From the NCBI RefSeq assembly GCF_003664645.1, contig NZ_RCHC01000008.1, positions 1 to 64,000 of the forward strand: a stretch of DNA of 64,000 nucleotides, in the 5' to 3' direction. The position numbers and the translations under genes were made by a program. Each line of letters starts with the position of its first letter. Position 1 is the stretch's first letter. This document shows, piece by piece, positions 1,996 to 17,267 of the stretch. Origin of the DNA: Acinetobacter chengduensis (lineage in GTDB: Bacteria; Pseudomonadota; Gammaproteobacteria; Pseudomonadales; Moraxellaceae). The notes under the pieces are model-generated. The model had not been told where the DNA came from. It worked only from the letters and a program-made list of their open reading frames with translations, and searched no databases.

Positions 1996-1996
1996 T

Positions 1997-2107
1997 ATGA
2001 ATACATACGCAATGATGATGATGATCATTTCTATAGTACTTCTTTGGGGTGGATTGATTTTAGCGACAGTACACCTTGTGAAGCATCCAGACGAAGAAGA
2101 CGATTGA
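1997..2107 (+). CDS. metS: MetS-type small subunit of the NSS transporter
   Basis: This 36-residue protein is one predicted membrane helix (about residues 5-28, opening with a run of four Met) followed by an acidic tail ending in DEEDD. It begins one base after the transporter stop codon, and the transporter's last codons GAGGAG supply the ribosome binding site, so the two are translationally linked. Small one-helix partners of this type (MetS) are known to be needed for activity or stability of NSS transporters such as MetP. The assignment rests on size, topology, acidic tail and position; sequence identity to characterised MetS was not tested. Confidence 0.75.
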   Translation: MNTYAMMMMIISIVLLWGGLILATVHLVKHPDEEDD

Positions 2108-2118
2108 GTCAATGCATT

Positions 2119-2150
2119 AAAAAAAAGGAATCCTTTGGGATTCCTTTTTT
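2119..2150 (+). terminator. Rho-independent terminator after the transporter pair
   Basis: The stem AAAAGGAATCC / GGGATTCCTTTT with a short loop is followed by a T run, 12 bases after the small-subunit stop codon. It closes the two-gene transporter operon. Confidence 0.88.
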
Positions 2151-2503
2151 ATTACTTATTTTTTATAGGACTTTTAAATCTAATTTAAATCGATAAACGT
2201 AGAAGGATCTAGTTGTATATAAAGAAAGTGATATCAATTGATTTAAATTAATACCTTATTCATGCGGTAATTCATGTGAAAATATAAAAACAGAATTTAG
2301 CTACTTTTAATAATGATTGCGACTGTAATTTATTTACAAGTGTATAGAATATATTATTGAATAATAACTAAACATATAATTAATAAATATTAAACTAATT
2401 TACAAAAAACTATAGAAATGCAAACTAAGTCTCGAAAAAACTTTATTAGTTAACAAAATGATGTAAGAATAAACAAAATATAAACATTAATTGGTTCAAT
2501 ACG
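2151..2503. other. AT-rich upstream region of the DUF11 cluster
   Basis: About 350 bases with no supported gene, very AT-rich, with many A and T tracts. It must hold the promoter of the secreted-protein cluster starting at 2504. AT-richness makes individual -35/-10 assignments unreliable, so I name none. Confidence 0.4.
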
Positions 2504-2983
2504 ATGAAGCAAAAAGCCAATAAATCGTTATTTAATTGTGTGGCAATTAGCATGATTTGTGGATTAACAAGCACAACTTTTGCAAATGAAAATCCACTCA
2601 AAGCACAAATGACGGTTTATCAAATTGTAGATCAACCCAAACATCTTAAAAAAGAGTTGAAGCAGACAGATCAGGTGAAGCCAGAAAGTCTGCTTGAATA
2701 TCAAGTGAGTTATTTAAATACCTCTGCGAACAGCTTAAAAAGTTTAAAGCTAAATCTGCCAATCCCTTCACATGTGAATTACACAGGGACATCTGTGCCT
2801 AAAAATACTTATGCATCGATAGATGGTCAGAATTTTGCTAAAGCACCTCTTACACGTGTTGTGAATGGCAAAAAAGTACTTGTGCCTTTCAATGAATATC
2901 GTGTTTTGCAGTGGCAAGTCGATGAATTAAAACCTAAACAAACGATTTCAGTCGCTGCACAAGTCCGTGTAAACGCTAATTAA
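2504..2983 (+). CDS. Small exported DUF11-like protein, first gene of surface cluster
   Basis: The 159-residue product has an N-terminal signal peptide (basic MKQKANK, hydrophobic stretch to about residue 25, cleavage probably after TTFA). The remainder looks like a single DUF11-type beta-sandwich module: LLEYQVSYLNTSANS, then a stretch with LPIPSHVNYTG, resembling the DUF11 pattern YTLTVTNTG...LPAGVTYV. Function is unknown. It is the first of five same-strand genes and lies 36 bases before the next, so co-expression is likely. It could be a periplasmic accessory subunit or a short surface subunit. The family call is moderate because the domain is divergent. Confidence 0.7.
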   Translation: MKQKANKSLFNCVAISMICGLTSTTFANENPLKAQMTVYQIVDQPKHLKKELKQTDQVKPESLLEYQVSYLNTSANSLKSLKLNLPIPSHVNYTGTSVPKNTYASIDGQNFAKAPLTRVVNGKKVLVPFNEYRVLQWQVDELKPKQTISVAAQVRVNAN

Positions 2984-3019
2984 TTTTTGCATCACAACAA
3001 TCACTTTTGTGGATTTCTT

Positions 3020-5845
3020 ATGAAACTTGATTTTAAATTAAGTACGGTAGCAGCATCTTTGGCTGTTATCGGCGGGGTAGCTTTGGCTAGCAGTCAATTA
3101 ATGGCAGCAACACCACTGGCGGGAACCAATATTAGTAACATTGCAACAGCTTCTTATGTGGATAATACCAATACGCCACGTACAGTAACATCGAACGAAG
3201 TCACCACAGCAGTTGCCCAAGTCGGTAGTTTTACTTTGGTGAATGATCGTTCCGCAACGACTACACCAAGTGGTAAAGTGGAAATGCACCACGTTTTGAC
3301 CAACACGGGTAACGGTACAGATACATTTACACTGCAATTAAATAATAAGAGTGGTGGTACATTTGATTTTGAATCAGGTAAATTTGCAGTTTATCTAGAT
3401 AAAAATCTTGATGGTGTACCTGATGATGCTGTGAATTTAGCAACGGCGAATACGGCTGTTGAGTTAAAATCAGGTGAAAGTGCTGGTTTAATTGTAGTTG
3501 CTACGACGCCAAATACTGCGACTGCGGGTCAAATGGATCAATTAGAGTTAGTGGCGACAGCTACTCAGCAGACACTCTATGTTTCGGGTCAAGGTACGAA
3601 ATCAAATACGGATACTGTAACGATTACGGCAGGTGCGGTTGTCAGCTTAACTAAGGCTGCGAGTATCAATAGTGCTAAAGTGGGCGATGAAATTGAATAT
3701 ACTTTAACGTTCAAAAATACAGGTAATGCAACAGCAACGAATGTTGCTATTTTCGATATTTTACCAACTAATGTCACTTATGTTACTAATTCAGCACGCT
3801 ATAGTGGTTCAACAGTTGCATTAACTGATATTGAAACTGATACTGATAATTATCAGTTCAATTTAGCTAAAAAGACACTGTTATTAAACATTCCTGAGCT
3901 AGCGGCAAATAAAACTGCAACCTTGAAATTTAAAGTAATCGTAAACGATACTCAGCTGAATACTGTTGATAACACAGCATACGTAGACCCAAATGGTAAG
4001 CCAAGTGATCCAAGTGATCCAACGAAGCCGAATGTGCCTTTAGAGATTGGTGATGCAGTACCACCAACAACATCAACGCCTGACGGCCCACAACCATCAA
4101 ACGAATCTAAAGTTCCTGTGGTTTCTGTGCATAAAGGTGCAATTAACGACACCTCGACATCAGCCTTCACAGATAGTGAAACACCTGCGGGCAGTGGTGA
4201 TGACGAAATTGTATTATCCGGTCAAAAAGACGGTGTACCAATTGTGTTTGGTGGATCGACGACAGCGGATGGCAATAAGATCGTTGTACATAACAGCGGT
4301 AATAGCGTCGATACCTATAACTTAACAGTTGATCGGGATGCATTGGCTCATTTTGCAGGGACAGATAAATTACCAGAAGGTACTCTGATTACGATTTTAA
4401 AATCAGATGGTGCAACGCCAATTACAGATACGAATGGCGATAAGCATTACGATACTGGTCCAATTCAACCTGGACAACATGCTGAATTTGTTATCCGTGT
4501 GACTTTACCAAATGGTTCAACGCATACAGTGGGTTACTCTTTCCTTGTAAACAGTACATCTATCGCAACCAGCACTGTAGATACGTTAAAACTTGCGACT
4601 GGTCCCATTACTGCGAATAGTGTTGACTTAGTCAACAAGGAAACAGGTGATCCTGAGAAAGGTACGGGTACGGGTACAAATACTCCAGTTCAAGATAAAA
4701 CCACACCGCCAGGCACACCGATTACATACGATGCAACCATCAAAAATAATGGTAATGTTCCTGATAACTATGTCATCACAGTACCAAATGTGCCTACAGA
4801 CTGGAAAGTTGAAATCTTTGAAAAAGATTCATCAGGCAACTGTACAACCACTAAAGCAACCAACTCAGGTAACATTCAAAATGGTAGTGAAAAAAGTTTC
4901 TGTGTGACCATCACGCCACCGCCAGGTACGCCAGCAGGAACAGAAAAAGACATTAAGGTAGAGATTAAATCACCATCAACTGGTACATCTGACTTTATTG
5001 TTTATCAAGTCGAAGTGGCGGAGCAACGTGGTTTAACATTTACCCCAGATCGTCAAGGTCAGGTTGCACCAGGCGGTACAGTTGAGTATGTACATACTTT
5101 AACCAACACTGGTAACGTTGTTGAAGGTGCTGCTGCAGTAAAAGCTGATGCTGCTAAAACTGGTTATGAATATGACCTACAGTTAGAGTGGACTTCAACG
5201 ATGACTGATGTAAATACATCGATCTATGTTGACTTAAACGGTAATGGTCAAGCAGATACCAGTGAGCTGATTACGGGTACTACTCCAGCAGCTTTAAATG
5301 CTTCATTGAAGACATTACTTGAAACATCTGGTGGTACTACGCCAGCTGATAAGGGCTTATCTCCAAATGAATCGATTCAGATCATTGTTAAAGTTCAAAC
5401 ACCAGCCACTGCAACAGCAGGTGAAAAAGATACAACGATTTTAACCTTCACTCCAACAGGTACAGGTGCACCAGGAGCTGTATCGATTACAGACTTAACT
5501 ACCATTAACTTGGGTCAAGTTCGTTTGTCTAAAACACAAGCATTGGCAACAGCTTGCGGTACAGTACCTGCGAATACAGCTTTTGTAACATCAAATATTA
5601 AAGCGAAACCAGGTGAGTGTGTTTATTACCGTGTGACTGCAGTCAATGATGGTAATCAAAATGCAACGGCTGTAAAAATCTCGGATATGGTGCCAAGTTA
5701 TACAACTTATGTTGCTAACTCGATTAAACCAACGACAGGTACAACCGAACCAACAACAACAAGTAAGGAAGTTCGTTACGATGTTGGTACGTTAACACCA
5801 GCAGCAACAGCAACATTAGAATTTGCTGTAAAAGTAGACCAATAA
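3020..5845 (+). CDS. Large exported DUF11-repeat surface protein
   Basis: This 941-residue protein has a typical signal peptide (MKLDFK, hydrophobic core, ending SSQLMAA near residue 31). A TTG 33 bases upstream is also open, but the ATG at 3020 gives a proper signal peptide and keeps alignment with the paralogous N-terminus of the next gene. The start of the mature chain (PLAGTNISNIATASY) is shared with that gene. A clear DUF11 domain lies at about 200-310 (VGDEIEYTLTFKNTGNA, then DILPTNVTYV) and another at about 845-940. Two copies of a module containing D-x-N-x-D/N-G (D127 and D738) flank Thr/Pro-rich linkers. The composition is Thr, Asn, Gly and Val-rich with few Cys, typical of extracellular beta proteins. 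C846 and C867 lie in a C-terminal module also found in the protein starting at 13012. Probably a surface stalk or fibre; function unproven. Confidence 0.85.
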   Translation: MKLDFKLSTVAASLAVIGGVALASSQLMAATPLAGTNISNIATASYVDNTNTPRTVTSNEVTTAVAQVGSFTLVNDRSATTTPSGKVEMHHVLTNTGNGTDTFTLQLNNKSGGTFDFESGKFAVYLDKNLDGVPDDAVNLATANTAVELKSGESAGLIVVATTPNTATAGQMDQLELVATATQQTLYVSGQGTKSNTDTVTITAGAVVSLTKAASINSAKVGDEIEYTLTFKNTGNATATNVAIFDILPTNVTYVTNSARYSGSTVALTDIETDTDNYQFNLAKKTLLLNIPELAANKTATLKFKVIVNDTQLNTVDNTAYVDPNGKPSDPSDPTKPNVPLEIGDAVPPTTSTPDGPQPSNESKVPVVSVHKGAINDTSTSAFTDSETPAGSGDDEIVLSGQKDGVPIVFGGSTTADGNKIVVHNSGNSVDTYNLTVDRDALAHFAGTDKLPEGTLITILKSDGATPITDTNGDKHYDTGPIQPGQHAEFVIRVTLPNGSTHTVGYSFLVNSTSIATSTVDTLKLATGPITANSVDLVNKETGDPEKGTGTGTNTPVQDKTTPPGTPITYDATIKNNGNVPDNYVITVPNVPTDWKVEIFEKDSSGNCTTTKATNSGNIQNGSEKSFCVTITPPPGTPAGTEKDIKVEIKSPSTGTSDFIVYQVEVAEQRGLTFTPDRQGQVAPGGTVEYVHTLTNTGNVVEGAAAVKADAAKTGYEYDLQLEWTSTMTDVNTSIYVDLNGNGQADTSELITGTTPAALNASLKTLLETSGGTTPADKGLSPNESIQIIVKVQTPATATAGEKDTTILTFTPTGTGAPGAVSITDLTTINLGQVRLSKTQALATACGTVPANTAFVTSNIKAKPGECVYYRVTAVNDGNQNATAVKISDMVPSYTTYVANSIKPTTGTTEPTTTSKEVRYDVGTLTPAATATLEFAVKVDQ

Positions 5846-5853
5846 TTGTAGTT

Positions 5854-5895
5854 AACCGCCTCTTTTAGGAGGGGCGGTTTCTTTTTGCTTTTTTT
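5854..5895 (+). terminator. Intrinsic terminator inside the DUF11 cluster
   Basis: The stem AACCGCC (5854-5860) / GGCGGTT (5873-5879) is followed by TCTTTTTGCTTTTTTT. It sits between the stalk-like gene and the barrel gene, just 16 bases before the latter's ATG. Transcripts may mostly end here, with some read-through or a separate start serving the downstream genes. Confidence 0.85.
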
Positions 5896-5910
5896 GTGGG
5901 TTGGGGTCCT

Positions 5911-8900
5911 ATGTCTGTTAAAACGTCAACTTCTTTGACTATTGATGCTTTGTCATGTTCGGCATTTGCGTCTGCTTTGTTGTTTGCGCAACAAAGTACT
6001 GCTGCAATGCCAATGGCTGGAGAGACTATTCAGAATATTGCTTATGCTTCATATGAGATAAGTGATGCAAATGGTGCGCAACATTTACAGACGACCCAAT
6101 CTAATCCTGTCAATGTCATGGTGCGTGAGCACTATGCACTTGACTTGTTACCTGATACAGTCAAGCAAGTTGAAGCTGGCTCTAAAGTTATTTGGCTAAA
6201 TGAGCTGAATAATTTAAGTAATACACCTGCATGGATTGATTTTTTAACTGATCCAAATGTGGGTTTATCCAATATTAAAATTTATCTGGATGCCAACCAA
6301 GATGGCATTTTTGATAGCACAGATACTTTGGTTCAAAATGGATTACAACTTGATCCAAACCAAGCTGTGTATTTATGGGTAGTTGCAGATACATCACACC
6401 AACTTGCTGATCAAAGTGAAATTGGTGTACCTATTACAGCATTTATTCGTGAACAACCTGAAATACGTGATCAGGTTGAAGATCGTGTACAAGTCATTCA
6501 ACCCAAATTAAAAATTGAAAAAGCTGTAGACCAAGCCGTTTTACAAGATACACGCCAATCACAGATTTTAAATTACACTTTAACTGTATCAAATACTGCG
6601 AATTTAGCTGTTGCACCCACACAGGTTAATGTCGATGGGCAAATGCAATCATGGGTGATTGTTGAAGATCCAATTCCAGCAAATACAACATTTGAACATT
6701 TACAGGTGAAAGAACAGCACTTAGATGTTGAGATATTACATCGCATTGCTGAAGGTCAATATTCAAAATATTTACCAGATGATAAAACAAAAATTGGCTA
6801 TGCTGTTGTGGCATATAAAAGACCATTTGCCGCACAGCAGAAAAGTCAAATTCAACTGACGGTAAAAACTAATCCAAGGTTGAGTTATACGACATTAAAA
6901 AATGAAGCTTATGTGCTTCACCAAGTAGGCAATCAAGATAAGAAAACCACCTCGAATGAGGTCGAAACACAAGTTGTAGCACCAGCCACGATTGATAGCA
7001 CAACTGGGGATTTTGCACATTCTTTACAGACAGGCCGTGTGAATGAGCCACTATATATTCAAACGAATGCTGCCATTTGTAATGCAAATCGCTCTGTGAG
7101 CGATCAGGTTAAAGTTCAGGTGACGTCTAAGCTAACGGGTGATGTTGTCTATGTGAATGCGACGGAAACGGGGGAAAATACAGGTGTTTTCCAGTTTGAT
7201 TTGCCAACAGAAGAAAATTCACAGAAAAATTTAGTTGATCAAATTTTACAAACCTTAAAGCGTGACCAGGTCAATATTCAGCTGACTGATTGTTTGGATG
7301 AACGTGGTCAAAGTACCCTGAAAATTGACAATATTCAAACCGATGTTTTGATTGACCCATACGGTATAGTATTTGATGCACAGACAGGAAAACCTGTAGC
7401 AGGTGCGACGGTCACTTTGGTCGATGAGTTTGATCGCCCTGTTGCAGACAATGTAGCATTTGAACTTGATCGAGTGACAGGTGAATTAAAATCGATTTCT
7501 GCCAAACAAGTAACCAATGAAAATGGTGAGTTTGTTTATCCACTGGTAAAAACAGGTAGTTATAAGTTGATCGTGGATACTTCAACAATCCCTGGTCAAG
7601 AATATAGCTTTGTAAGTAATCAGGTCATTTACCCCATTAGCTCATTTAATGGTAAAGAGGTTCATGCCGAATGGTCATATGGCGGAAAATTTACCTTAAC
7701 GAGTGATAGTCCTGCATTAAATATTGATATTCCGATTGATCCAAAAGCTTCAAGTAAAACAGGTTTAGTTGTTCAGAAAACAGCGCGAGATCAAAGTGTA
7801 GAATTAGGTGATTTTACTAATTACACCATTACAGTCACTAACCAAGGCAGTATTGAAGCACCAAACGTTCAGCTACAAGATACTTTGCCACGTGGTTTTA
7901 GTTATGTACCGAATACCACACGAGTAGATGGTAAAAAAGTCGCTGACCCTCTAGGGGGGAAAGGGCCTTATTTAACTTTAGGTCTGGGTAGCTTAGCTGC
8001 AAATACAGCGAAGAAAATTGAATATCGTGTTCAAATTGGCCCAAATGCATTAAATGGCGACGGGATTAACCGTGCACGTGCTGTAGATGGTCGTGGCGAA
8101 AGTTCAAATGAAGCACAGGCAAAAGTTAAAGTTCGTCCAGGGATATTTAGCTCAGAAGCATTTATTGTTGGTAAGGTATATACCGACTGTAATCGTAATG
8201 GCATGCAGGATGCAGGGGAGCTTGGTGTTCCTGGTGTACGTATCTTTATGGAAGATGGCACTTATGTGGTGACTGACCGTGAAGGTAAATACGACTTTTA
8301 TGGTGTTTCACCAAAAACACATGTCCTAAAAGTCGATCGCACCACAGTACCTGCGGGAGCTGAAATGGTGATTCAATCGAATCGTCATGCTGGTGATCCT
8401 GAAAGCCGTTTTGTTGATACCAAGCGCGGTGAATTGCATCGTGCAGACTTTGCGATTGCAGATCATGCTGAGGTATGTTCAGCACCGTTAATTGAGAAAA
8501 TTGAAAAGCGCCGTGCACAGATCAATCAAGATAATTTTAATCTAGAAAAAGCAATTAATCAGCAACTCTCTATTGATCGCCCAAGTTATACAACAACTAG
8601 TACACGTTCAGAAACGACCAGTGGCTGTCGCTCTGAGAATGGGCAAGATTGTTTATTAGGTCGTTATGATGATAAAGAAAAAACTAAATCTGGTCAGTTA
8701 AATATTGCATCGACTGAACCTAAAAAACTTGAAAAATTAGAAAGTTTATTAGGGCGTAGCGATGATAATCAGCTACGTATTTTGAATTTAAATGATGGGC
8801 AAGTCATGGCGGTCAACCAAACGACCGTACAAATTCAAGGTGCAGCAGGTGCAGAACAACGTATTTATGTAAATGACCAGCTTGTTTCTGATAAGCAAAT

Positions 8901-11900
8901 TGGTCAACGCTCTGTAATGGCGGAGCAACGTAAACAAGGTTTAGAATTTATTGGTGTTGGTTTGAATGTGGGTAAAAACTACATTCGTGCAGAACAGCTC
9001 GATTTTATGGGCAATGTTCGTGAAACTGCATCAGTGAATGTTGTTGTTCCCGATCAAATTGACAAGATTACATTAAGCCAGCAGAAAGCAACAGCCATGG
9101 CCAATGGTAGTGACCGTATTTATGTCACATTGAAGCTACTTGATAAACATGGCGTAAAAATTTCGACGCGCACCCCAATCACTTTAGAAAGTGATATTGG
9201 TATTATTGATTTGCCAGATCTTAATCCAAAGGAAAAAGGTATTCAGCAATTCATTGAAGGCGGTGAGTTGTTGATTCCGATCTTGGCGCCCAATACGCCA
9301 GGACTCGGGTCTCTACGCGTACAATCTGGCATTGTTAAGAGTGAAATTGAACTACAATTCATTGCTGATTTACGTCCATTAATTGCTGTGGGTTTAATTG
9401 AGGGTTCAATCAACTTTAGCAATTTTGATGGTAATAAATTACATAGTGTGACTCGTGATGATGGTTTCGAAGATGAATTAAGAGAAATTGGAGACTTAGG
9501 TGGTGATACAACACTGAATGGTCGTGCCGCAATGTATTTGAAGGGTAAGGTCAAAGGCGATTATTTACTGACCCTTGCTTATGATTCAGATAAAAGCTCG
9601 AAACAGCGATTGTTCCGTGATATTCAGCCTGATGAATATTATCCAGTTTATGGCGACGCTTCGGCCAAAGGCTTTGATGCACAGTCTACAAGTAAGCTCT
9701 ATGTACGCTTAGACAAAGGTCGTTCTTATGCAATGTACGGGGATTATATTACTCGTACAGAGCGTGATGAAGGGCTTGCATTAGGTCAATATAACCGTTC
9801 ATTGACGGGTGTTAAAGTTGGGTATGAGTCTGATAAATTCCGAATGGCTGCCTTTGGAGCACAAACTAAATCACGTCAAGTGGTTACGGAAAATCGTGCT
9901 TTAGGTATTACTGGTCCGTATAGCTTAGGTTCAATTTCAAATGATCTCATTTTAGAAAATAGTGAAAAAGTAGAAGTATTAACTCGAGATCGAGATAATC
10001 CAGGTCTTATTATTGAGAAAAAAGTACTCACCCGTTTTGTTGACTATGAAATTGATACTTATAGCAATAGCGTCTATTTGAAAGAAGCGGTTGCCAGTGT
10101 CGATCTTAATTTCAACCCGAACTATATTCGGATTACTGTTGAAGCAGAAGAAGTCGGTCAAGAGTACGAAGTCGCAGGTCTGAGCTTCGGCTATGCAGTG
10201 AAGAGTAATCTCAAACTCGGGGGCTCTTTTGTACAAAGTAATGATCCTCTAAACAAAGAACAAATTATTAGTGCGAATGCTGTCTTAAAACTTGGACAAT
10301 ACGGCAAACTTGTTGCAGAGATTGCTCAATCTGAAAATACCAATCAGGTTGCAGATCAAGTGACTCAAATTGGTCAAGCGATTGATGCCAATGAGAAAGA
10401 CGGGGTTGCAGCACGGATCGAATTTGATTATTCATTAGGTACACAAAATTTACGTGCATATCATCAACAAGCCGATGAGGGTTTCCAAAATGATGCTGCA
10501 ACGATCAGTGCTGGACGGGTTGAAAGTGGAATTAAGCTGAGCCAAAACATTGCGAAAGTGGGTATGGCACGTTTAGAAGCGATTCGTACTGAAGATCAAC
10601 AAAATCAAGGTGTAAGAACAGGCTTATCTGCAAGTTTAGAACGCAATTTATTTAAAGTACTGAGTGCGGAAGTTGGCTTACGTTTTTATGATGAAACGGT
10701 TGAAGGAGCAACAGCAGCGACAGAACATTTAAATGCCTATAACGGAACAACAGGTCGTGTAAAACTCAGCTCACAATTGCCATGGAAAGGTGCAAGTGTG
10801 TTTACAGAGTATGAGCAGGATTTATCTAATTCAGATAAGCAAGTTGCAACAGTCGGCGGGCGTGTACAGGCAGCTTCAAATCTTGAAGTTTATGTACATC
10901 ATCAGCTGATCTCTGCCCTCGACGGTTTGTATTCGTTAAATACAACAGAGCAGACGAACAGCACTGTTGTTGGTTTGAACAGCAACTATATGCAAGATGC
11001 TTCTGTATTTAGTGAATATCGAGTTGCGGATGGTATGAGTAACCGTGAAGCAGAAGCTGCGATTGGTTTGAAAAATCGTTGGCAGATACAACCGAAAGTC
11101 TATGTGAATACGAGCTTTGAGAAAGTGGAGACTTTATCTGCTAAAGCTGAAAATAATAGTGATTCTACGGCTGCAAGCATTGGTTTTGAGTATTTAGCAA
11201 ATGAACAATGGAAAGCCGTTACTCGTATAGAAGGGCGCCATTCAAACGATTCAGAAAGCTTAATTCACATGATAGCTTATGCTAATAAATGGTCAGATGA
11301 TTTGACTTTCTTAACCAAGAATACGGTTAACTTTATAGATAATAAGCAACCAAATCAGGGAAATCACTTACGTAACCGTTTCCAATTAGGTTTAGCATGG
11401 CGTGATTTTGACCAAAATCAACTTGATATTTTATCTAAAGTTGAACATTTTTATGAAGATAATCGGACTAACCTAGAGTCCGCATTCAAGCGTGAGTCTT
11501 ATGTCTTTTCAACGCATGCAAACTATCATCCTAATCGTCAACTGACACTGTCAGGTCAGTATGCCACGAAATGGTCAATTCTTGATGAAGATCAAGTGAA
11601 AAGTGAAGCATTGACTCAGCTTTTAAGTAATCGTGTGTTGTATGACATTAATGAGCGTTGGGATATGGGCTTGCAAACTGGTGTCATGTGGGGCAATAAC
11701 GGCGCTGGTGCACGTTATTTAGCTGGTGTTGAATTGGGTTATTTGGCTGCAACTAACTTATGGGTTTCAGCAGGTTACAACTTTTTGGGCTATCAGGATG
11801 ATGAGCTGGCAAATACGTCTTCTACTGGAGAAGGGGCATATTTGAGATTCCGCTTCAAATTTGATGAAGATCTGTTTGGACGCGGTTCATCGAGAAAGAA

Positions 11901-11931
11901 CTTTTCTTTAGAGCCAGGTGAGGGCCGTTAA
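5911..11931 (+). CDS. Giant DUF11/SdrD-B-like protein with C-terminal outer-membrane barrel
   Basis: The 2006-residue product has a signal peptide ending near QQSTAA. An in-frame GTG lies 15 bases upstream, but the ATG at 5911 follows TTGGGG. It also places the shared motifs (PMAGETIQNIAYASY and D127-x-N-x-D-G) at the same residue numbers as in the preceding gene product. Domains seen: DUF11-like at about 200-320, a carboxypeptidase-regulatory-like fold at about 481-560 (GKPVAGATVTLVD), a clear DUF11 at about 618-740, and an SdrD-B-like domain at about 752-830 (CNRNGMQDAGELGVPGVRI). From about 1150 to the end is a long alternating-residue region with YYPVYGD, ending in YLRFRFKFDEDLF, as expected for an outer-membrane beta barrel. 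It is probably the membrane anchor or exporter of the cluster. The OmpA-type gene starts 2 bases after its stop. Confidence 0.82.
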   Translation: MSVKTSTSLTIDALSCSAFASALLFAQQSTAAMPMAGETIQNIAYASYEISDANGAQHLQTTQSNPVNVMVREHYALDLLPDTVKQVEAGSKVIWLNELNNLSNTPAWIDFLTDPNVGLSNIKIYLDANQDGIFDSTDTLVQNGLQLDPNQAVYLWVVADTSHQLADQSEIGVPITAFIREQPEIRDQVEDRVQVIQPKLKIEKAVDQAVLQDTRQSQILNYTLTVSNTANLAVAPTQVNVDGQMQSWVIVEDPIPANTTFEHLQVKEQHLDVEILHRIAEGQYSKYLPDDKTKIGYAVVAYKRPFAAQQKSQIQLTVKTNPRLSYTTLKNEAYVLHQVGNQDKKTTSNEVETQVVAPATIDSTTGDFAHSLQTGRVNEPLYIQTNAAICNANRSVSDQVKVQVTSKLTGDVVYVNATETGENTGVFQFDLPTEENSQKNLVDQILQTLKRDQVNIQLTDCLDERGQSTLKIDNIQTDVLIDPYGIVFDAQTGKPVAGATVTLVDEFDRPVADNVAFELDRVTGELKSISAKQVTNENGEFVYPLVKTGSYKLIVDTSTIPGQEYSFVSNQVIYPISSFNGKEVHAEWSYGGKFTLTSDSPALNIDIPIDPKASSKTGLVVQKTARDQSVELGDFTNYTITVTNQGSIEAPNVQLQDTLPRGFSYVPNTTRVDGKKVADPLGGKGPYLTLGLGSLAANTAKKIEYRVQIGPNALNGDGINRARAVDGRGESSNEAQAKVKVRPGIFSSEAFIVGKVYTDCNRNGMQDAGELGVPGVRIFMEDGTYVVTDREGKYDFYGVSPKTHVLKVDRTTVPAGAEMVIQSNRHAGDPESRFVDTKRGELHRADFAIADHAEVCSAPLIEKIEKRRAQINQDNFNLEKAINQQLSIDRPSYTTTSTRSETTSGCRSENGQDCLLGRYDDKEKTKSGQLNIASTEPKKLEKLESLLGRSDDNQLRILNLNDGQVMAVNQTTVQIQGAAGAEQRIYVNDQLVSDKQIGQRSVMAEQRKQGLEFIGVGLNVGKNYIRAEQLDFMGNVRETASVNVVVPDQIDKITLSQQKATAMANGSDRIYVTLKLLDKHGVKISTRTPITLESDIGIIDLPDLNPKEKGIQQFIEGGELLIPILAPNTPGLGSLRVQSGIVKSEIELQFIADLRPLIAVGLIEGSINFSNFDGNKLHSVTRDDGFEDELREIGDLGGDTTLNGRAAMYLKGKVKGDYLLTLAYDSDKSSKQRLFRDIQPDEYYPVYGDASAKGFDAQSTSKLYVRLDKGRSYAMYGDYITRTERDEGLALGQYNRSLTGVKVGYESDKFRMAAFGAQTKSRQVVTENRALGITGPYSLGSISNDLILENSEKVEVLTRDRDNPGLIIEKKVLTRFVDYEIDTYSNSVYLKEAVASVDLNFNPNYIRITVEAEEVGQEYEVAGLSFGYAVKSNLKLGGSFVQSNDPLNKEQIISANAVLKLGQYGKLVAEIAQSENTNQVADQVTQIGQAIDANEKDGVAARIEFDYSLGTQNLRAYHQQADEGFQNDAATISAGRVESGIKLSQNIAKVGMARLEAIRTEDQQNQGVRTGLSASLERNLFKVLSAEVGLRFYDETVEGATAATEHLNAYNGTTGRVKLSSQLPWKGASVFTEYEQDLSNSDKQVATVGGRVQAASNLEVYVHHQLISALDGLYSLNTTEQTNSTVVGLNSNYMQDASVFSEYRVADGMSNREAEAAIGLKNRWQIQPKVYVNTSFEKVETLSAKAENNSDSTAASIGFEYLANEQWKAVTRIEGRHSNDSESLIHMIAYANKWSDDLTFLTKNTVNFIDNKQPNQGNHLRNRFQLGLAWRDFDQNQLDILSKVEHFYEDNRTNLESAFKRESYVFSTHANYHPNRQLTLSGQYATKWSILDEDQVKSEALTQLLSNRVLYDINERWDMGLQTGVMWGNNGAGARYLAGVELGYLAATNLWVSAGYNFLGYQDDELANTSSTGEGAYLRFRFKFDEDLFGRGSSRKNFSLEPGEGR

Positions 11932-11933
11932 GC

Positions 11934-12989
11934 ATGAGATTGCCGATATTATTTTTAGCAGGCTGCCTCATCAGCGGTGGCGCTACTTATGCAGGCGTAG
12001 CATCTAAGCCTTCTTTGGAGAGGATCAATGTATTAAGTGCGCAAATAGTGCCCTATACAGCGAAGGATCCGCTAAACCGTTACCATGCTTATAAAGCAAA
12101 AATGTGGCTCAGCTATGCGCTGAATCAGTCTTCTGAAGAAGGTTGGACCTCAGCAGGCCAAGAAGCGCTGGAACAAGCACAGCACATAGCGGATCAGCTG
12201 GCTACTGTGCAGAAGCTAGACTTGACTACGCCAGTTTTAAGTGTTTCTCAGGTGATGCGCCGTGACTTGTGGCTACAGGCAGAGTATTTAAAACAGCAGG
12301 GCGCAATTCAGAAAGCGCCGGAAAGTCTGGCTCATGCTGAAGTCATGCTGGTGTGGGCTGCAGCTGAATACTGTGAATTAGGTTGGCGCCATGCTAATGC
12401 ACATTTTAAAGCTGCAGAGCAGGCTTTGCATGAGGCTTCTGAGCGGTCGGGCATTTACCGTGTTGCTGGAAGCGCGGATGTAAAAGATCTCCCAAGTTTG
12501 CACCAGCTCAACGGCAAAGGTTGCAATGGTGTAAATGCTACGCTATGGCCTCTGCTGAAGAAACAGCCTCAGGCTGAAACAGCAGTTCCTATGGCAGTAC
12601 ATAACATTGTTCATTTTGCCTTAGACAGTGCACAGCTGAGCTTTGAAAGTCAAAAAATACTGGATCAGTTAAGCGCGTTGCTACATGCCCATCCGCAGAT
12701 TGAGGTATTGCTTTCAGGCTATACCGACCCGCGTGCCAATATGCAATATAATCTTGCGCTGGCGGAGCGCCGTATCCGATCAGTAAAAGATTATTTGCTT
12801 GCGCGCCATATTGATACTGGACGCATGAGTGAAGCTGTTAAAGGTGCTCAGGATTTTGTACAGGATCAGAATTCTCAGATCGCCCATGCAAAAAGCAGAA
12901 GAGTGGTCTTGGAGCTGAGCAATACAGGAGAGTTGAATATTCAGCTCGAACCGCAAGCTACAGATTTGCAAATTGAAAACCGAAATTAA
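11934..12989 (+). CDS. OmpA-family peptidoglycan-binding protein
   Basis: This 351-residue envelope protein has a short hydrophobic N-terminus (MRLPILFLAGCLISGG). LAGC at 8-11 resembles a lipobox but sits unusually early, so either lipidation or ordinary cleavage near ATYAG is possible. Residues 25-200 are helical and rich in Ala, Gln and Leu. An OmpA C-terminal domain spans about 220-335, with VHFALDSAQLSF, SGYTDPRA and NLALAERRIRSV. D265 and R280 match the residues that hold the diaminopimelate of peptidoglycan. It starts 2 bases after the giant barrel gene, with GGTGAGGG upstream, so the two are probably made together and this protein may tether the barrel to the cell wall. Gln codons are mostly CAG and Leu CTG, unlike the genes before it. 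Confidence 0.85.
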   Translation: MRLPILFLAGCLISGGATYAGVASKPSLERINVLSAQIVPYTAKDPLNRYHAYKAKMWLSYALNQSSEEGWTSAGQEALEQAQHIADQLATVQKLDLTTPVLSVSQVMRRDLWLQAEYLKQQGAIQKAPESLAHAEVMLVWAAAEYCELGWRHANAHFKAAEQALHEASERSGIYRVAGSADVKDLPSLHQLNGKGCNGVNATLWPLLKKQPQAETAVPMAVHNIVHFALDSAQLSFESQKILDQLSALLHAHPQIEVLLSGYTDPRANMQYNLALAERRIRSVKDYLLARHIDTGRMSEAVKGAQDFVQDQNSQIAHAKSRRVVLELSNTGELNIQLEPQATDLQIENRN

Positions 12990-13011
12990 AGACTTAAAGT
13001 GAACTAAATTT

Positions 13012-15912
13012 ATGAAAAAGCCGTTTTTACGTCATATTTTGGCATCTACTTTAATTTTAATTCCTTCAATTTCGGAGGCGGCGACGATTGCGGATAAGAA
13101 TGCAAAAGTTGGTATTCAGCGTAGCTTTGTTAACTTGGATTTCAGTTCTCCTCGGCTTCCATTATTAAATCAGCAGGTTAATCAAAACTTGGTTCCAGGG
13201 TGGTTAACTACGCATCGTGATATGGGTGGAACTCAAGGCCGTATTATTGAAATTTGGAAAGGTGCCGGGCACTCTACTGCAGGAGGGCTGCCTAATGCTG
13301 CGGACGATCAATATGCAGAACTGAATGCCGAAGAGGAGTCAGCTTTATATCAAAAGGTTTGCCTCTTTGGCGGAGAAAGTTTTGATTGGTCATTAAAGCA
13401 CGCTGCTCGCGAAAAAAACGTGACAGAAAAAATGGAGTTTTTTGTAGGAACTGTAGCTGATGGTGTGGGCGGAACTGCTACATATAGCACAAAATCATTG
13501 CAGCTCATTACGGAAAGTTCTGTTACGAGAAATCAAACTGGAAGATGGGTTACAAGATCGGGTAAGTCGACCTTAGATAAAACGAAGATTTCAGAGGCTG
13601 GAGGTGTTTATGCTTTTATTTTTAAAGCAAAAAACGGCGGTACATTGGGAAACTTTTTAGATAATATTGTTCTTAAATTGAAGCCAGCAGTTGAATTCAG
13701 CGCTGCGGACGGCGAGTTTATTGAAAACAGTACAGAAATCCAGCCCATCCCTTTTAAAATTGTAGGACAAATTACATCTGAAGCGGATATGCCCACTTTA
13801 AATTTTAAAGTTGCATATTCTGAAGGCACGGCTTTGAAGAAAAGAGCTGTATATGGGGTTGACTATACAATCTATAAACGTTCGGGAAATGAGTATATTG
13901 AGCTGACATCTGCGACAGATGGATTGGAAATTGACAAAGCAACCAATAATATTAAATTTAATTATTTACCATCCTATATGAGTGGCCTTGATTATTTCCA
14001 AGGTGTTGAAATTAATGGATTGGCGATTAAGCTGAAAGATAATTTTGCTGCGGATGGAGATAAAATTCTTCCATTCGCTTTTAATCTAGATGCGAACAGC
14101 AAAGCAATTACAACATCTTTATCCAGTTGTAGTACAGTGGCTGCATTGCAGGAATTTCAGCTTTCAATTGCTGATAATGATATTGATTTAGCAATTAATA
14201 AAGAGCTCGTTGAAAAATTTCCTGCTTCTGGAAGCAAAGTCAGCTATAACATTGGGATCGAAAATAAAACGGAAGGTAGTGCGCGTGATGTTGTATTAAA
14301 AGACAGTTTATTTTCCGGCTTAATAAAAGACACAGATCTAAAATTGACGTGCAGTGAAGTGGATAATGGCGGCAATAAGGCATCTTGCCCAGTATTGGCC
14401 ACAGATGCTGCCACACAGCTGTTTTCCGCTACGGGCCTGAATATTGGAAAAATTCCAGGCAAATCAAAATTGAAATTCACAGTATCCGGATTAAAAGTTG
14501 ACCCGAATGCTAAAGCTGATGCAAATGCCAGCAATTATACTGAATACAATCCATCAAAAGATTATGCAGGCTATATTGCAAACTATGCGGAAGTTTCTAC
14601 GAGCTCTAATGATATTGATGCTGAAAATAATAAATTTACAGCAGAAAACCGTATTATCGCTGCCAGTGATTTATCAAACAATAAACCGGGCGCTGCTCAG
14701 AAAGAAACAGGTACAGGACTGTTTTATATTGCTCAAGAAGGGCGTAACGGTGCTACAGCACTCTTAACAAAAACGGCTGATACAGAAGGAAAAGTCTATT
14801 TTCCTCTAAATATACAAAACAGTAGCATGTATGCGCAAAACTATAAGCTGTACGCATCCAGCACAGCAATTAACACAGCATCTGCTGAAGATTATACAGC
14901 TTTAGACACATCAAGCATCAGCTCATTTGTCACTGGCGTTCAGGTTAAGTTTTATCCTGTGATTGACAGTGAATGTAAGGCTGGCTTATCCAGTTCAGAT
15001 ATCAGTCAAATGAATGTACCTGCGAACAGTACAGTGCAGGTTTGTGCAGAAATTACATCAACATCTGCTGAAGCTACGAATATTCCGGTGTGGTTTGCTA
15101 TTGAATCTGCAGAAACAGGCCTTGGCGATATTATTAAAAACAGCATTATGTATTCAGGTCTGTCAGTGCGGAATCTGATTTTAGTAAATGATCAACAGGC
15201 GCAAGTCCAGATCGGTGGTAGCTATGTATTTGCGCACCGTCTAACCAATAATGGCTCAATTCCTGAAACAGGCATCCAGTTTGCACTTAATCCGCTGACG
15301 CCTAAAGATGGCTTTGCGTATACTTTATTTATTGATACAAACAGCAATGGCGTTTTGGACAGCAGTGATGTTCAAGTCAAGGATACAGATACATCCAGTA
15401 TTGCGTCAGGAGAGTATTTGGCGTTGCTGGTCAAAGTGCAGGCGCCAGCAACTGCAACCAATGGCATGAGAAGCCAGGTTGAGCTAAAAGCTGTTCCTAT
15501 TGAAACAGTGAAAGATATTTCTCTGCTACCTTTAATCAACACAGATACCATTACAGTCGGCATCAATCAGATTTCACTGCAAAAGATGCAGTTCAAGCAG
15601 GCTGAATGCATCAATATGACAGCAGACCAAATTGTTAAAGCAGCGTATCAAATCAGCAGTCAAACGATTGGCCGAGGCGACTGTATTGTGTACCGGATTA
15701 TGGTGAGCAATATTGGTGCTGAAACCATTAAAGCGATTGATGTAAATGATATGTATCCGGCATATACTTTCCCTTGGAGCTCAAATAAAATGCTTCCAAT
15801 GACGGATTCGAATGATGTAGTGACTGAACAAAATCAGCAAATAAAGACAGTCATTAAAGAGCTGAAGCCGAATGAACAAAAGAGTTTGTATTTCGGCATT
15901 AAACTGCAGTAA
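13012..15912 (+). CDS. Exported lectin-like, DUF11-type surface protein
   Basis: This 966-residue protein has a signal peptide (MKKPFLRHILAS, cleaved near SEAA). Residues about 30-220 look like a jelly-roll carbohydrate-binding-type domain, with VPGWLTTHRD, IIEIWKGAG and QYAELNAEEESALYQ, a pattern seen in DUF642-like and related surface domains. Residues about 240-390 resemble a Calx-beta module (AVYGVDYTI), followed by DUF11-like sequence at about 395-550. The last 250 residues parallel the end of the protein encoded at 3020-5845: D775-x-N-x-N-G, VKVQAPATAT, then C866 and C891 at nearly the same distances from the C-terminus. It is the last gene of the cluster, 22 bases after the OmpA gene. 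I infer an adhesin or surface tip; no function is proven. Confidence 0.8.
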   Translation: MKKPFLRHILASTLILIPSISEAATIADKNAKVGIQRSFVNLDFSSPRLPLLNQQVNQNLVPGWLTTHRDMGGTQGRIIEIWKGAGHSTAGGLPNAADDQYAELNAEEESALYQKVCLFGGESFDWSLKHAAREKNVTEKMEFFVGTVADGVGGTATYSTKSLQLITESSVTRNQTGRWVTRSGKSTLDKTKISEAGGVYAFIFKAKNGGTLGNFLDNIVLKLKPAVEFSAADGEFIENSTEIQPIPFKIVGQITSEADMPTLNFKVAYSEGTALKKRAVYGVDYTIYKRSGNEYIELTSATDGLEIDKATNNIKFNYLPSYMSGLDYFQGVEINGLAIKLKDNFAADGDKILPFAFNLDANSKAITTSLSSCSTVAALQEFQLSIADNDIDLAINKELVEKFPASGSKVSYNIGIENKTEGSARDVVLKDSLFSGLIKDTDLKLTCSEVDNGGNKASCPVLATDAATQLFSATGLNIGKIPGKSKLKFTVSGLKVDPNAKADANASNYTEYNPSKDYAGYIANYAEVSTSSNDIDAENNKFTAENRIIAASDLSNNKPGAAQKETGTGLFYIAQEGRNGATALLTKTADTEGKVYFPLNIQNSSMYAQNYKLYASSTAINTASAEDYTALDTSSISSFVTGVQVKFYPVIDSECKAGLSSSDISQMNVPANSTVQVCAEITSTSAEATNIPVWFAIESAETGLGDIIKNSIMYSGLSVRNLILVNDQQAQVQIGGSYVFAHRLTNNGSIPETGIQFALNPLTPKDGFAYTLFIDTNSNGVLDSSDVQVKDTDTSSIASGEYLALLVKVQAPATATNGMRSQVELKAVPIETVKDISLLPLINTDTITVGINQISLQKMQFKQAECINMTADQIVKAAYQISSQTIGRGDCIVYRIMVSNIGAETIKAIDVNDMYPAYTFPWSSNKMLPMTDSNDVVTEQNQQIKTVIKELKPNEQKSLYFGIKLQ

Positions 15913-15914
15913 AT

Positions 15915-15941
15915 AAAAAGGTGGCTATGGCCACCTTTTTT
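15915..15941 (+). terminator. Strong terminator ending the DUF11 cluster
   Basis: The stem AAAAAGGTGGC (15915-15925) / GCCACCTTTTT (15930-15940) has a four-base loop and a T run. It lies between the convergent surface-protein gene and rsmB, and the A run on the other side lets it work in both directions. Confidence 0.92.
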
Positions 15942-15956
15942 ATGATCTAAATCGGC

Positions 15957-17267
15957 TTATGCTGTCTTTTGGATCAAGCAATAATAAAAACCATCACCTT
16001 TACCTTGCTGAGGTAACAGTTGACGACCATGTATTTGTTCAATTCCCCAATCCGCATCAATTTTAATTTCTTGCGCATCTTCATGCGTCGCAAAAAAATC
16101 AACCATCTGCTGTTCATTCTCTACTTTCAAAATCGAGCATGTGATGTAGAGCAAGTGGCCACCAGCTTTAACTTGCTGCCACATGTGTTGCAAAATTTCT
16201 TTTTGGAGTGCAACAGTTTGAGCAATGTCACTCGATTGACGTAATAAACGAATGTCTGGATGACGACGCATTACACCAATAGCCGAACATGGTGCATCGA
16301 GCACGATACAATCGACGGGTTCAGGTGCAGTCCAGCTGGTTGCATCGGCAGTTAAAATTTCAACATCTGCGTGCTGTGTCAGTTGAAGACGCTCTAGGTT
16401 TTCAGAAACACGTAATAAGCGTTTTGAATCTTGATCAATGGCATATAACTTTTTCAGGTCAAAGCGTTCAAGTAAATGTGCTGTTTTTCCACCGGGTGCT
16501 GCACATGCATCCACAACCACTTTGCCATCTAAGTTTGGCAAAATTTGTGCGCAAAGCTGAGCATGTTCATCTTGTACAGAAAAACCACCATCTTCAAAGC
16601 CTGGAAGATTTGGAATTTGAACAGCTTGTTCGAGCACGATCCCAACGTCTGAAAGTTCACATGTGCGGGCTGCAATATTGTGTTCGGTTAAAATGTCTAA
16701 GAAGTCACCACGGCTCACTGCACTGTCGTTCACACGTAGCGTAAGTGGGGCAATTTGTTTTAAATCCCAACATAATTTTTCAAGGGTTTCTTCGCCCCAG
16801 TCTTTTTTCAAGCGTTTAAATAACCAACTTGGTAGACCATGTGCATGAGCGAGCTGTTCTTGAAAATGTATTGTTTCACGTGAAACACGGCGTAGAACGG
16901 CATTCACCAAACCACTCAGTGGGCCATAGCCCAATTGTTTTACGGCTTCAACAGTTTCAGAAATCACCCCATGCGGTGCAAGACGTGTACAAAGTAATTG
17001 GTAGATACCTACATACATGCATGTTTCGACCGTTTCATTGTTATCTGATTTGGTCAGTAACGGTAAAGTAATACTTTTTAAGCTATACCACTGGCGCAGT
17101 GAACCAAGTACTAATTCATGAAAAAGCGCACGGTCACGATCCGCGACTTTTTGTAAATGAATAGGGAGCACGCTTGCAAGAGATTGACCTTGATGTACGG
17201 CCAAGAGCGTACGAATAACTTGAGCGCGTAAATTAAGGTGGGAAGTTCCCGGTTGTGGCTGACTCAT
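15957..17267 (-). CDS. rsmB: 16S rRNA m5C967 methyltransferase RsmB
   Basis: RsmB (Sun/Fmu) transfers a methyl group from S-adenosylmethionine to C5 of cytosine 967 of 16S rRNA in the cytoplasm. The 436-residue length is typical. The N-terminal 140 residues match the NusB-like RNA-binding domain. The SAM site is VVDACAAPGGKTAHLLE, and the two cysteines of the m5C methyltransferase mechanism are in DAPCSAIGV and YITCSILKVEN. The gene overlaps the 3' end of fmt by 4 bases, the conserved fmt-rsmB arrangement of proteobacteria, so translation is coupled. Confidence 0.95.
   Translation of the reverse strand: MSQPQPGTSHLNLRAQVIRTLLAVHQGQSLASVLPIHLQKVADRDRALFHELVLGSLRQWYSLKSITLPLLTKSDNNETVETCMYVGIYQLLCTRLAPHGVISETVEAVKQLGYGPLSGLVNAVLRRVSRETIHFQEQLAHAHGLPSWLFKRLKKDWGEETLEKLCWDLKQIAPLTLRVNDSAVSRGDFLDILTEHNIAARTCELSDVGIVLEQAVQIPNLPGFEDGGFSVQDEHAQLCAQILPNLDGKVVVDACAAPGGKTAHLLERFDLKKLYAIDQDSKRLLRVSENLERLQLTQHADVEILTADATSWTAPEPVDCIVLDAPCSAIGVMRRHPDIRLLRQSSDIAQTVALQKEILQHMWQQVKAGGHLLYITCSILKVENEQQMVDFFATHEDAQEIKIDADWGIEQIHGRQLLPQQGKGDGFYYCLIQKTA

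Follow-up and report, generated by a model that had tools for sequence, protein, structure and literature searches.

Domains of the DUF11 family, or CLIPPER domains, have an immunoglobulin-like (Ig-like) fold with a Lys-Asp-Asn isopeptide bond, and in the structure 9IFR from Acinetobacter silvestris, as described in the accessible part of PMC12617251, Lys715, Asp748 and Asn806 follow one another in that order within one domain. The same part of that source describes the CLIPPER adhesin B9T28_05395 of A. silvestris, in which tip, proposed adhesive stalk and OmpA part belong to one chain with intramolecular bonds (PMC12617251). Chaperone-usher pili are built from Ig-like subunits that lack a strand and are completed by the N-terminus of the next subunit, with an adhesin at the tip and an outer-membrane barrel at the base. 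Donor-strand fibres also occur outside the chaperone-usher pathway: the threads of Sulfolobus acidocaldarius are one, with a proposed intermolecular isopeptide bond at the N-terminus (accessible part of PMC9715654), and TasA of Bacillus subtilis is named in the title of PMC9674648 as a donor-strand exchange fibre of the biofilm matrix. In a 64,000-nucleotide stretch of Acinetobacter chengduensis (contig NZ_RCHC01000008.1, positions 1 to 64,000; hereafter the window), the list of open reading frames (ORFs) places five genes for exported proteins, which we named P1 to P5, in a row on the + strand at 2504-15912. We propose, giving the idea about an even chance, that this cluster encodes a surface fibre held together by donor-strand complementation of CLIPPER domains and provided with its own outer-membrane base.

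P1 (2504-2983, 159 aa) is a single exported DUF11-like domain, and P2 (3020-5845) is a DUF11 protein of 941 aa from the ATG at 3020, or 952 aa from an upstream TTG. P3 (5911-11931), of 2006 aa from the ATG at 5911 or 2011 aa from a GTG, runs from an N-terminal hairpin through DUF11 (residues 617-742), SdrD_B (755-822) and Ig-like domains to a predicted barrel. P4 (11934-12989, 351 aa) joins an N-terminal part that appears helical by eye to an OmpA domain (12615-12893), and P5 (13012-15912, 966 aa) is a further exported DUF11 protein. All five start with a signal-peptide-like sequence, as judged by eye. These ORFs, together with a terminator-like hairpin at 5854-5879 (+ strand), bear out the original prediction of five genes of these sizes in a row on one strand with an internal terminator. 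Pfam matches over cut-off comprised DUF11 in P2 (three stretches), P3 and P5 (two stretches), SdrD_B in P3, and OmpA in P4 (50.4 bits), the last as expected for the peptidoglycan binder that had been predicted. P1 had no Pfam match at E 0.1 and was recognised by our profile of the internal DUF11 domains of the system (22 bits, with the match extending up to the last residue at column 97 of 127), so that the claim of four DUF11 proteins stands by Pfam for P2, P3 and P5 and by our own profile for P1. No pilus chaperone, usher, pilin or sortase family was matched among the five proteins in Pfam and NCBIfam, in agreement with the prediction that chaperone, usher and pilin genes are absent.

The Lys-Asp-Asn triad can be located by sequence within one domain in internal DUF11 domains of P2 (Lys212, Asp246, Asn318) and P3 (Lys623, Asp657, Asn720), and alignment of the internal P3 domain to 9IFR placed an Asn at the equivalent position. 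We constructed a DUF11 profile of 127 columns from 61 complete internal P2 and P3 domains (59 from the compared loci and two from the window), with the Asn at column 105, and ran it over 648 ORFs of the compared neighbourhoods and the window, calling a match C-terminal when it lay at most 40 residues from the stop. Outside the training set, 172 of 192 internal matches reached the Asn column (60 of 60 did so within it, by construction), versus none of the 164 C-terminal matches (0/165 when one ORF cut at a locus end was included), and 159 of these 164 had at most five residues left. The C-terminal matches came from 63 loci of related genomes, with 39 of the 164 matches from outside Acinetobacter, and are not independent events. 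Among the 20 internal matches that fell short of the Asn column, 11 were followed by another 41-70 residues and probably represent further C-terminal domains. When the last 150 residues alone were aligned, a strict test (column ≤101 and ≤5 residues left) was passed by 93 of 105 C-terminal matches; eight of the 12 failures were local alignments that stopped mid-domain with 46-67 residues left, three stopped at columns 93-110 with 17-22 left, and the twelfth, from locus L097 (955 aa), stopped at column 43 with 56 left and could join the eight. Both Lys and Asp were retained in 50 of 56 P2-type ends and in 13 of 14 P5-type ends. These comparisons firmly indicated that P1, P2 and P5 end in a DUF11 domain from which the last strand or strands, carrying the isopeptide Asn, are missing. 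In the window, the incomplete domains of P2 (5501-5842; residues 828-941, with Lys838 and Asp889) and P5 (15559-15909; residues about 850-966, with Lys858 and Asp913), both on the + strand, are therefore candidate acceptors. A single-sequence search found no credible solved relative of the P2 C-terminal domain, and it is possible that such a domain folds without its last strand.

The missing tail, for which the profile consensus reads AGALAGDIINRAYAD, is resembled by the mature N-termini of P2 (ATPLAGTNISNIATASY) and P3 (AMPMAGETIQNIAYASY), in both of which Asn is mature residue 11 (cleavage sites set by eye). The proposed donor strands lie in N-terminal hairpins at 3107-3217 (+ strand; P2 residues 30-66, Asn40), identified by motif, matrix and Pfam join test, and at 6004-6135 (+ strand; P3 residues 32-75, Asn42), identified by matrix and Pfam join test. 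A strict motif, [ILVMTF]xNx[AVS]x[AV], sought in residues 16-85, was present in 39 of 59 P2-type and 33 of 43 P3-type proteins, versus 9 of 168 other ORFs, 2 of 35 P1, 0 of 15 P5 and 0 of 23 P4; several of the misses carry a near-motif such as ISNMAIG or ITNIASG, and some ORF starts, which were called mechanically, are wrong and lost motif hits. With a 12-column matrix around the Asn, P2 and P3 N-termini (n=99, median 5.7) scored above unrelated N-termini (n=197, median 1.9, p 1e-23), P1, P4 and P5 N-termini (n=73, p 7e-15) and random internal blocks (n=495, median 2.9, p 1e-15), these p values being optimistic because the rows are related. Within the window, the N-terminus of P3 ranked second of all its segments, after an internal domain tail, and that of P2 third, after residue 133 and an internal tail; overall, the best N-terminal segment was among the top three in 26 of 56 P2-type and 26 of 43 P3-type proteins.

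Joining the P3 N-terminus to the end of P2 extended the Pfam DUF11 match from column 85 to column 104 and raised it from 46.2 to 50.3 bits (control join 47.8 bits, column 95), and joining it to the end of P5 extended the match from column 78 to column 104 with a rise from 21.7 to 26.1 bits (control join 22.5 bits, column 87). When the joins were scored with our own profile, 29-40% of true joins reached the profile end, versus 0-4% with other N-termini, 5-7% with internal pieces and 7-14% with shuffled donors. Taken together, these tests lent moderate support to the idea that the missing end is replaced by the start of the next protein. We also considered that the hairpin just opens the first module, with C-terminal domains that are already complete, which we set aside: the 9IFR triad lies in one domain and P1 is a lone domain without an N-terminal hairpin, so the end is missing relative to the 9IFR fold.

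Since P5 and P1 would be acceptors only, P2 both donor and acceptor and P3 donor only, the set has a single polarity, with P5 as tip, P2 as shaft and P3 as base. This polarity agrees with the binding-type domain on P5 and the membrane anchor on P3, neither of which was used in deriving it. In the proposed fibre, the jelly-roll protein P5 would be completed by the N-terminus of a P2, each P2 by the next P2, and the last P2 by the N-terminus of P3, which then continues into the barrel. Each joint may close as an enzyme-free intermolecular isopeptide bond, because the P2 and P5 acceptors keep Lys and Asp and the donors supply Asn. P1, an acceptor without the Asp, might bind free donor strands in the periplasm as a reversible cap, or else terminate chains. 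The very large barrel of P3 would anchor the fibre in the outer membrane and is its probable route out of the cell, while P4 would tie P3 to peptidoglycan; the tip probably binds polysaccharide, so that the fibre would serve attachment or biofilm formation, and assembly would need no chaperone, usher or sortase. Gene order, the missing strand, the Lys and Asp conservation, the N-terminal motif and the OmpA-P3 fusion described below are features of the sequences themselves, from which we infer strand exchange, polymerisation, the covalent bond, export through P3, sugar binding and adhesion. A more specific version is a covalent, self-assembling Gram-negative fibre in which the CLIPPER isopeptide bond is split between proteins (C-terminal Lys and Asp of one, N-terminal Asn of the next), which leaves the cell through a wall-tied barrel of 30-40 strands and which occurs in more than one class of Pseudomonadota; this we regard as possible but doubtful.

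The proposed base ends in the barrel that the original prediction had assigned to the 2006-residue protein (9358-11928, + strand; residues about 1150-2006), and modelling likewise predicted one, at low confidence. The last 857 residues of P3 had no Pfam match over cut-off; among the weak matches of the barrel part, DUF2490 was the commonest (28 of 30 sequences, best E 1e-4), and no autotransporter or inverse-autotransporter barrel family appeared among the Pfam matches of P3 (E 0.1) or of the 30 barrel sequences (E 1). Weak Invasin_D3 and Big_1 matches were confined to the Ig part preceding the barrel. An AlphaFold2 model, built from 30 sequences, had a mean predicted local distance difference test score (pLDDT) of 61.7 and a predicted template-modelling score of 0.40. 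DSSP assigned to it 32 consecutive strands at model residues 459-1038 (P3 from about 1400), with 8-10 shorter and poorly predicted strands before them, which taken at face value would give a barrel of 30-40 strands. Ushers have 24 strands, LptD 26 and SprA 36, and the predicted count thus exceeds the first two and lies in the range of the third. Among the 50 Foldseek matches listed, most of which fell on the Ig part of the model, the sole outer-membrane barrel was SprA (two entries, E 9e-6 and 1e-5, template-modelling (TM) score 0.19-0.20, 7% identity). A second fold comparison ranked a chain of the Mtr complex, TonB receptors, FimD and LptD (Z 10-17, root-mean-square deviation (rmsd) 6-15, with TonB receptors at Z 13-15); SprA was not among its best 50 entries, which does not exclude similarity to SprA. 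Sequence searches gave no credible solved relative of the barrel, and we read the fold matches as pointing to a very large barrel, not to kinship.

The relatives of P4 bear on where P3 lies. In the distant relatives L096-L099 the OmpA domain is a separate small protein encoded after P3, and in all five distant P3 proteins tested (L102, L103, L107, L109 and L110; 47-87 bits, over cut-off) it is found within P3, between the DUF11 part and the barrel. This fusion suggests that P3 and P4 are functionally tied. Considering that OmpA domains bind peptidoglycan, the stretch of P3 that contains one should be in the periplasm, and the DUF11 part of P3 is thus more likely periplasmic than outside the cell, where the original prediction had placed it as a stalk. 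L094 and L095 belong to a different genus within the family; there, the match was restricted to the N-terminal part of P4, indicating that P4 does more than bind the wall. The possibility that P4 is a lipoprotein was rejected: the signal-peptide Cys that the P4 of the window has (LAGC) is absent, by eye, from most of the 15 P4 proteins compared from other Acinetobacter loci. L096-L099 do have short P4 relatives that resemble lipoproteins.

At the opposite end of the proposed fibre, residues 24-385 of P5 were modelled at pLDDT 77.9, and the first ~190 of these form a jelly roll (13117-13689, + strand; residues about 36-226), as anticipated in the original prediction of a lectin-like domain. Its best structural matches were carbohydrate-binding modules (CBMs) of family 4 (Z 12.1, rmsd 3.2-3.6 over 143-146 residues), with CBM16 and CBM22 close behind. 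Two buried-type Trp pairs and Glu, His and Arg positions were invariant in 14 relatives. A sugar ligand is likely.

We then compared the window with all 42 other Acinetobacter loci that have a long P3. The gene order, on which the notion of a coherent set depended, was conserved: P1, P2 and P3 were adjacent, on one strand and in this order in 40 of the 42 loci, the exceptions being L051, in which P2 is split in two, and L129, in which the contig ends inside P3. P3 was matched in 45 of 175 genomes of the genus, 43 of which (the own genome included) have a long P3 and two a distant relative alone; the long P3 proteins of the other Acinetobacter genomes share about 48-69% identity. Named carriers of a relative include Acinetobacter sp. 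SFB, A. albensis, Acinetobacter sp. ANC 4169, A. bouvetii, A. lwoffii and Candidatus A. avistercoris. P5 was also matched in 45 of 175 genomes of the genus, with full coverage limited to the own genome and 12 close ones, and the remaining matches were partial, most often to the C-terminal half. The compact arrangement seen in the window occurred in 12 loci, among which L047 ends inside P5 and L051 has a split P2 and no P4. In 26 of the 30 non-compact loci, three additional large subunits are encoded upstream on the same strand, and their ends were of the same incomplete type wherever the profile matched them. Beyond the genus, a profile of the Ig-plus-barrel part matched 36 of 293 genomes (19 of 118 genera) in the order and 46 of 398 genomes (26 of 213 genera) in the phylum, other classes among them, indicating that relatives recognisable by this profile are spread across Pseudomonadota in more than one class. 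A P1-type gene was present in 13 of 20 distant neighbourhoods.

Several further observations concern these loci. The extra subunits lie upstream of P1 in L056, L058-L062, L120, L121, L123-L128 and L130-L141, and a CBM-like jelly roll in the longest of them was matched in L058 and L128 only; proteins of 1377-1387 aa with a P5-like start were found elsewhere in six genomes. L051 appears to be a decaying copy, with P2 broken into 591 and 298 aa, P4 absent, and P3 and P5 intact. In the distant loci L111 and L112 the halves of P3 are encoded separately, with the gene for a long DUF11 protein preceding that for a barrel-type protein of ~1730 aa.

The hairpin between P2 and P3 was examined in the same loci. 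A hairpin of at least 8 pairs was present in the P2-P3 gap of 36 of 41 other Acinetobacter loci, with a sequence that varies between groups. Among shuffled P2-P3 gaps, 25 of 820 had such a hairpin, and the 41 P1-P2 gaps, which are shorter than the P2-P3 gaps, had none. In the window and in some other loci it is followed by a T-rich stretch, so that incomplete termination, or processing, may keep P2 at a higher level than P3, and the hairpin could in this way make the shaft exceed the base. It is a possible conserved attenuator.

A number of results weigh against the proposed fibre. The strict motif was absent from 20 of 59 P2-type and 10 of 43 P3-type N-termini, and with the matrix only 19% of N-termini exceeded the 95th percentile of internal blocks. 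One of the four Pfam joins failed, the join of P2 to P2 gaining 0.9 bits, below the 1.6 of its control; in the own-profile join test (19 of 56 acceptors) median gains ran from -1.2 to +3.2 bits, with shuffled donors gaining up to +2.3. Profile-profile comparison of the N-terminal segments with the missing part found the correct columns but weakly (P 0.04 and 0.08, probability about 1%), the segment being too short. On the acceptor side, one P2-type end (L096, 1077 aa) reached column 110 in the alignment of the last 150 residues, past the Asn and with 18 residues left; single-domain P1 proteins are without Asp at the expected place (by eye), and the P2 end of L093 is without Lys and Asp although the L093 donors keep their Asn. 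Among the 39 loci that extend more than 600 bases past P3, only 28 have P4 next to it; confidence in the barrel model is low, and the P5 jelly roll is equally similar to jelly rolls that do not bind sugar (indole-alkaloid cyclases and meprin, Z 11-12).

Much of the same evidence could be accommodated by a short anchored adhesin that does not polymerise, in which P3 uses its N-terminal strand to hold a single P2, a single P5 or a P5-P2 pair, and the donor-acceptor pairs serve only to attach each adhesin to the barrel. Motif, matrix and missing strand apply equally to this arrangement; a single P2 or P5 is already long, so that a long fibre is not needed, and the extra upstream subunits of 26 of 30 loci could be alternative adhesins. 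P2 has a donor-like start as well as an acceptor end, however, which allows chains, and the hairpin in 36 of 41 P2-P3 gaps fits an excess of P2 over P3, leading us to judge the short adhesin unlikely. The incomplete C-terminal domain might instead be a secretion signal read by P3 as translocon, with the N-terminal motif as nothing but the start of the first module. Type IX secretion, whose surface proteins carry an Ig-like C-terminal domain, resembles the cluster in combining a very large barrel (SprA) with an OmpA-type protein (PorE), and this reading would explain why all C-terminal matches end at the same place, why SprA is the only outer-membrane barrel among the 50 Foldseek matches listed and why an OmpA protein accompanies the barrel. 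Yet the type IX C-terminal sorting domain PF18962 had no match in the genome at E 0.001 (one of 14 control genomes, Bacteroides ihuae, matched, below cut-off), and the SprA similarity amounts to a TM score of 0.20 and 7% identity on a weak model. P4 scored 56.6 bits against PorE, for which the cut-off is 600. A secretion signal would also leave unexplained the N-terminal motif that P2 has in common with its would-be exporter P3, and likewise P1 as a lone acceptor domain, and we consider it quite improbable.

Another possibility is that P3 carries a sheet or a loose matrix of DUF11 proteins, whose sugar binding is directed to polysaccharide of the same cell. Surface layers have been described in Acinetobacter strains, and several large DUF11 proteins per cluster together with a CBM-like domain would suit one, but complementary ends yield a chain, not a lattice, and none of our tests favoured a sheet; we hold this reading to be very unlikely. 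Slightest of all, in our estimate, is the chance that P3 is a wide polysaccharide receptor or porin for which P5 and P2 capture polysaccharide. TonB-receptor barrels did rank high in the second fold comparison (Z 13-15), and the CBM-like domain of P5 is consistent with capture, but Pfam showed no enzyme, TonB box or inner-membrane transporter among the five proteins (no dedicated search for a TonB box was made), and the complementary ends would be left unexplained. For the original interpretation as a whole, the conserved surface system with barrel, tether, DUF11 parts and lectin-like tip is supported, while the placement of the P3 stalk is not, and the missing C-terminal strand and the N-terminal strand had been overlooked.

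If the cluster does encode a donor-strand fibre, it would be a new variant of such fibres, and a kind of its own should the split isopeptide joint and the barrel route be shown. It would resemble chaperone-usher pili in the way it works but differ from them in its CLIPPER subunits of ~900 residues, its possible covalent joint and its OmpA tether; no usher (PF00577) or pilus chaperone is present in the cluster, and the single usher match of the genome lies on another contig (C34). Cells of S. acidocaldarius are not known to have an outer membrane, and TasA is a Gram-positive fibre of a single small subunit with no known barrel. The cluster shares domain family, genus, an OmpA part and a proposed adhesive stalk with B9T28_05395, but distributes over separate proteins with incomplete ends what the adhesin holds in one chain; the terms 'outer membrane', 'beta-barrel' and 'donor strand' do not occur in the text of PMC12617251. 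The archaeal threads come closest in principle, but consist of a single small subunit, the proposed bond joining the amino group at an N-terminus with an Asn two subunits away, and 'DUF11' does not occur in the text of PMC9715654. The best NCBIfam match of P4, through its OmpA domain, was PdsO of the proteobacterial dedicated sortase system (70.5 bits versus a cut-off of 152.2), and no sortase (PF04203) was found in the genome.

No characterised secretion or adhesion system was matched in our searches, as the original prediction of an undescribed system implied, and the open-access literature (most subscription papers and bioRxiv fall outside this scope) held no description of the gene set or of intermolecular DUF11 joints. 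Three candidates were put aside: the FilF pilus protein of A. baumannii, set apart by description only, for which the literature listing gave no tie to DUF11 or to the gene set; cargo of type XI secretion, where the accessible part of PMC12282271 has one whole-word mention of DUF11, in passing; and the F-ENA spore appendages, in which DUF11 occurs in the anchor protein only (accessible part of PMC11952670). Were the donor-strand fibre confirmed, it would represent a widespread Gram-negative route of fibre assembly without a known assembly enzyme, with joints that amount to naturally occurring split-isopeptide pairs similar to those engineered for protein labelling. A DUF11 architecture found in many genomes and a large barrel family that has no Pfam entry would also gain a function, and the 9IFR adhesin would gain a partner.

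Such a partner gene was found in L143. The protein that contains the 9IFR sequence there (121 residues aligned without difference, by eye) has nine DUF11 stretches, a CshA_NR2 domain and an OmpA end, and its 2129 aa equal the length given for the 9IFR parent in the accessible part of PMC12617251. Its gene (L143:4685-14800 for the pair) ends 12 bases upstream of a gene for a 1237-aa protein without a Pfam match, the middle of which matched the P3 barrel (E 6e-22). It therefore seems that the DUF11 adhesin from which 9IFR was solved is also paired with a barrel protein. A similar DUF11-barrel pair lies in L142 and L154, with the DUF11 gene cut by the contig end.

In the window, the cluster is flanked on one side by a transporter gene (511-1995), which we take to be of the sodium-symporter type, and on the other by two genes on the opposite strand, presumably rsmB and fmt. 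An Rfam search of 1900-16100 gave no match to a known structured RNA. The G+C content of the cluster is 0.406, close to the 0.415 of the remaining window, and the leader of ~350 bases before P1 (2150-2503) has a G+C content of only 0.20 and no ORF of 100 aa.

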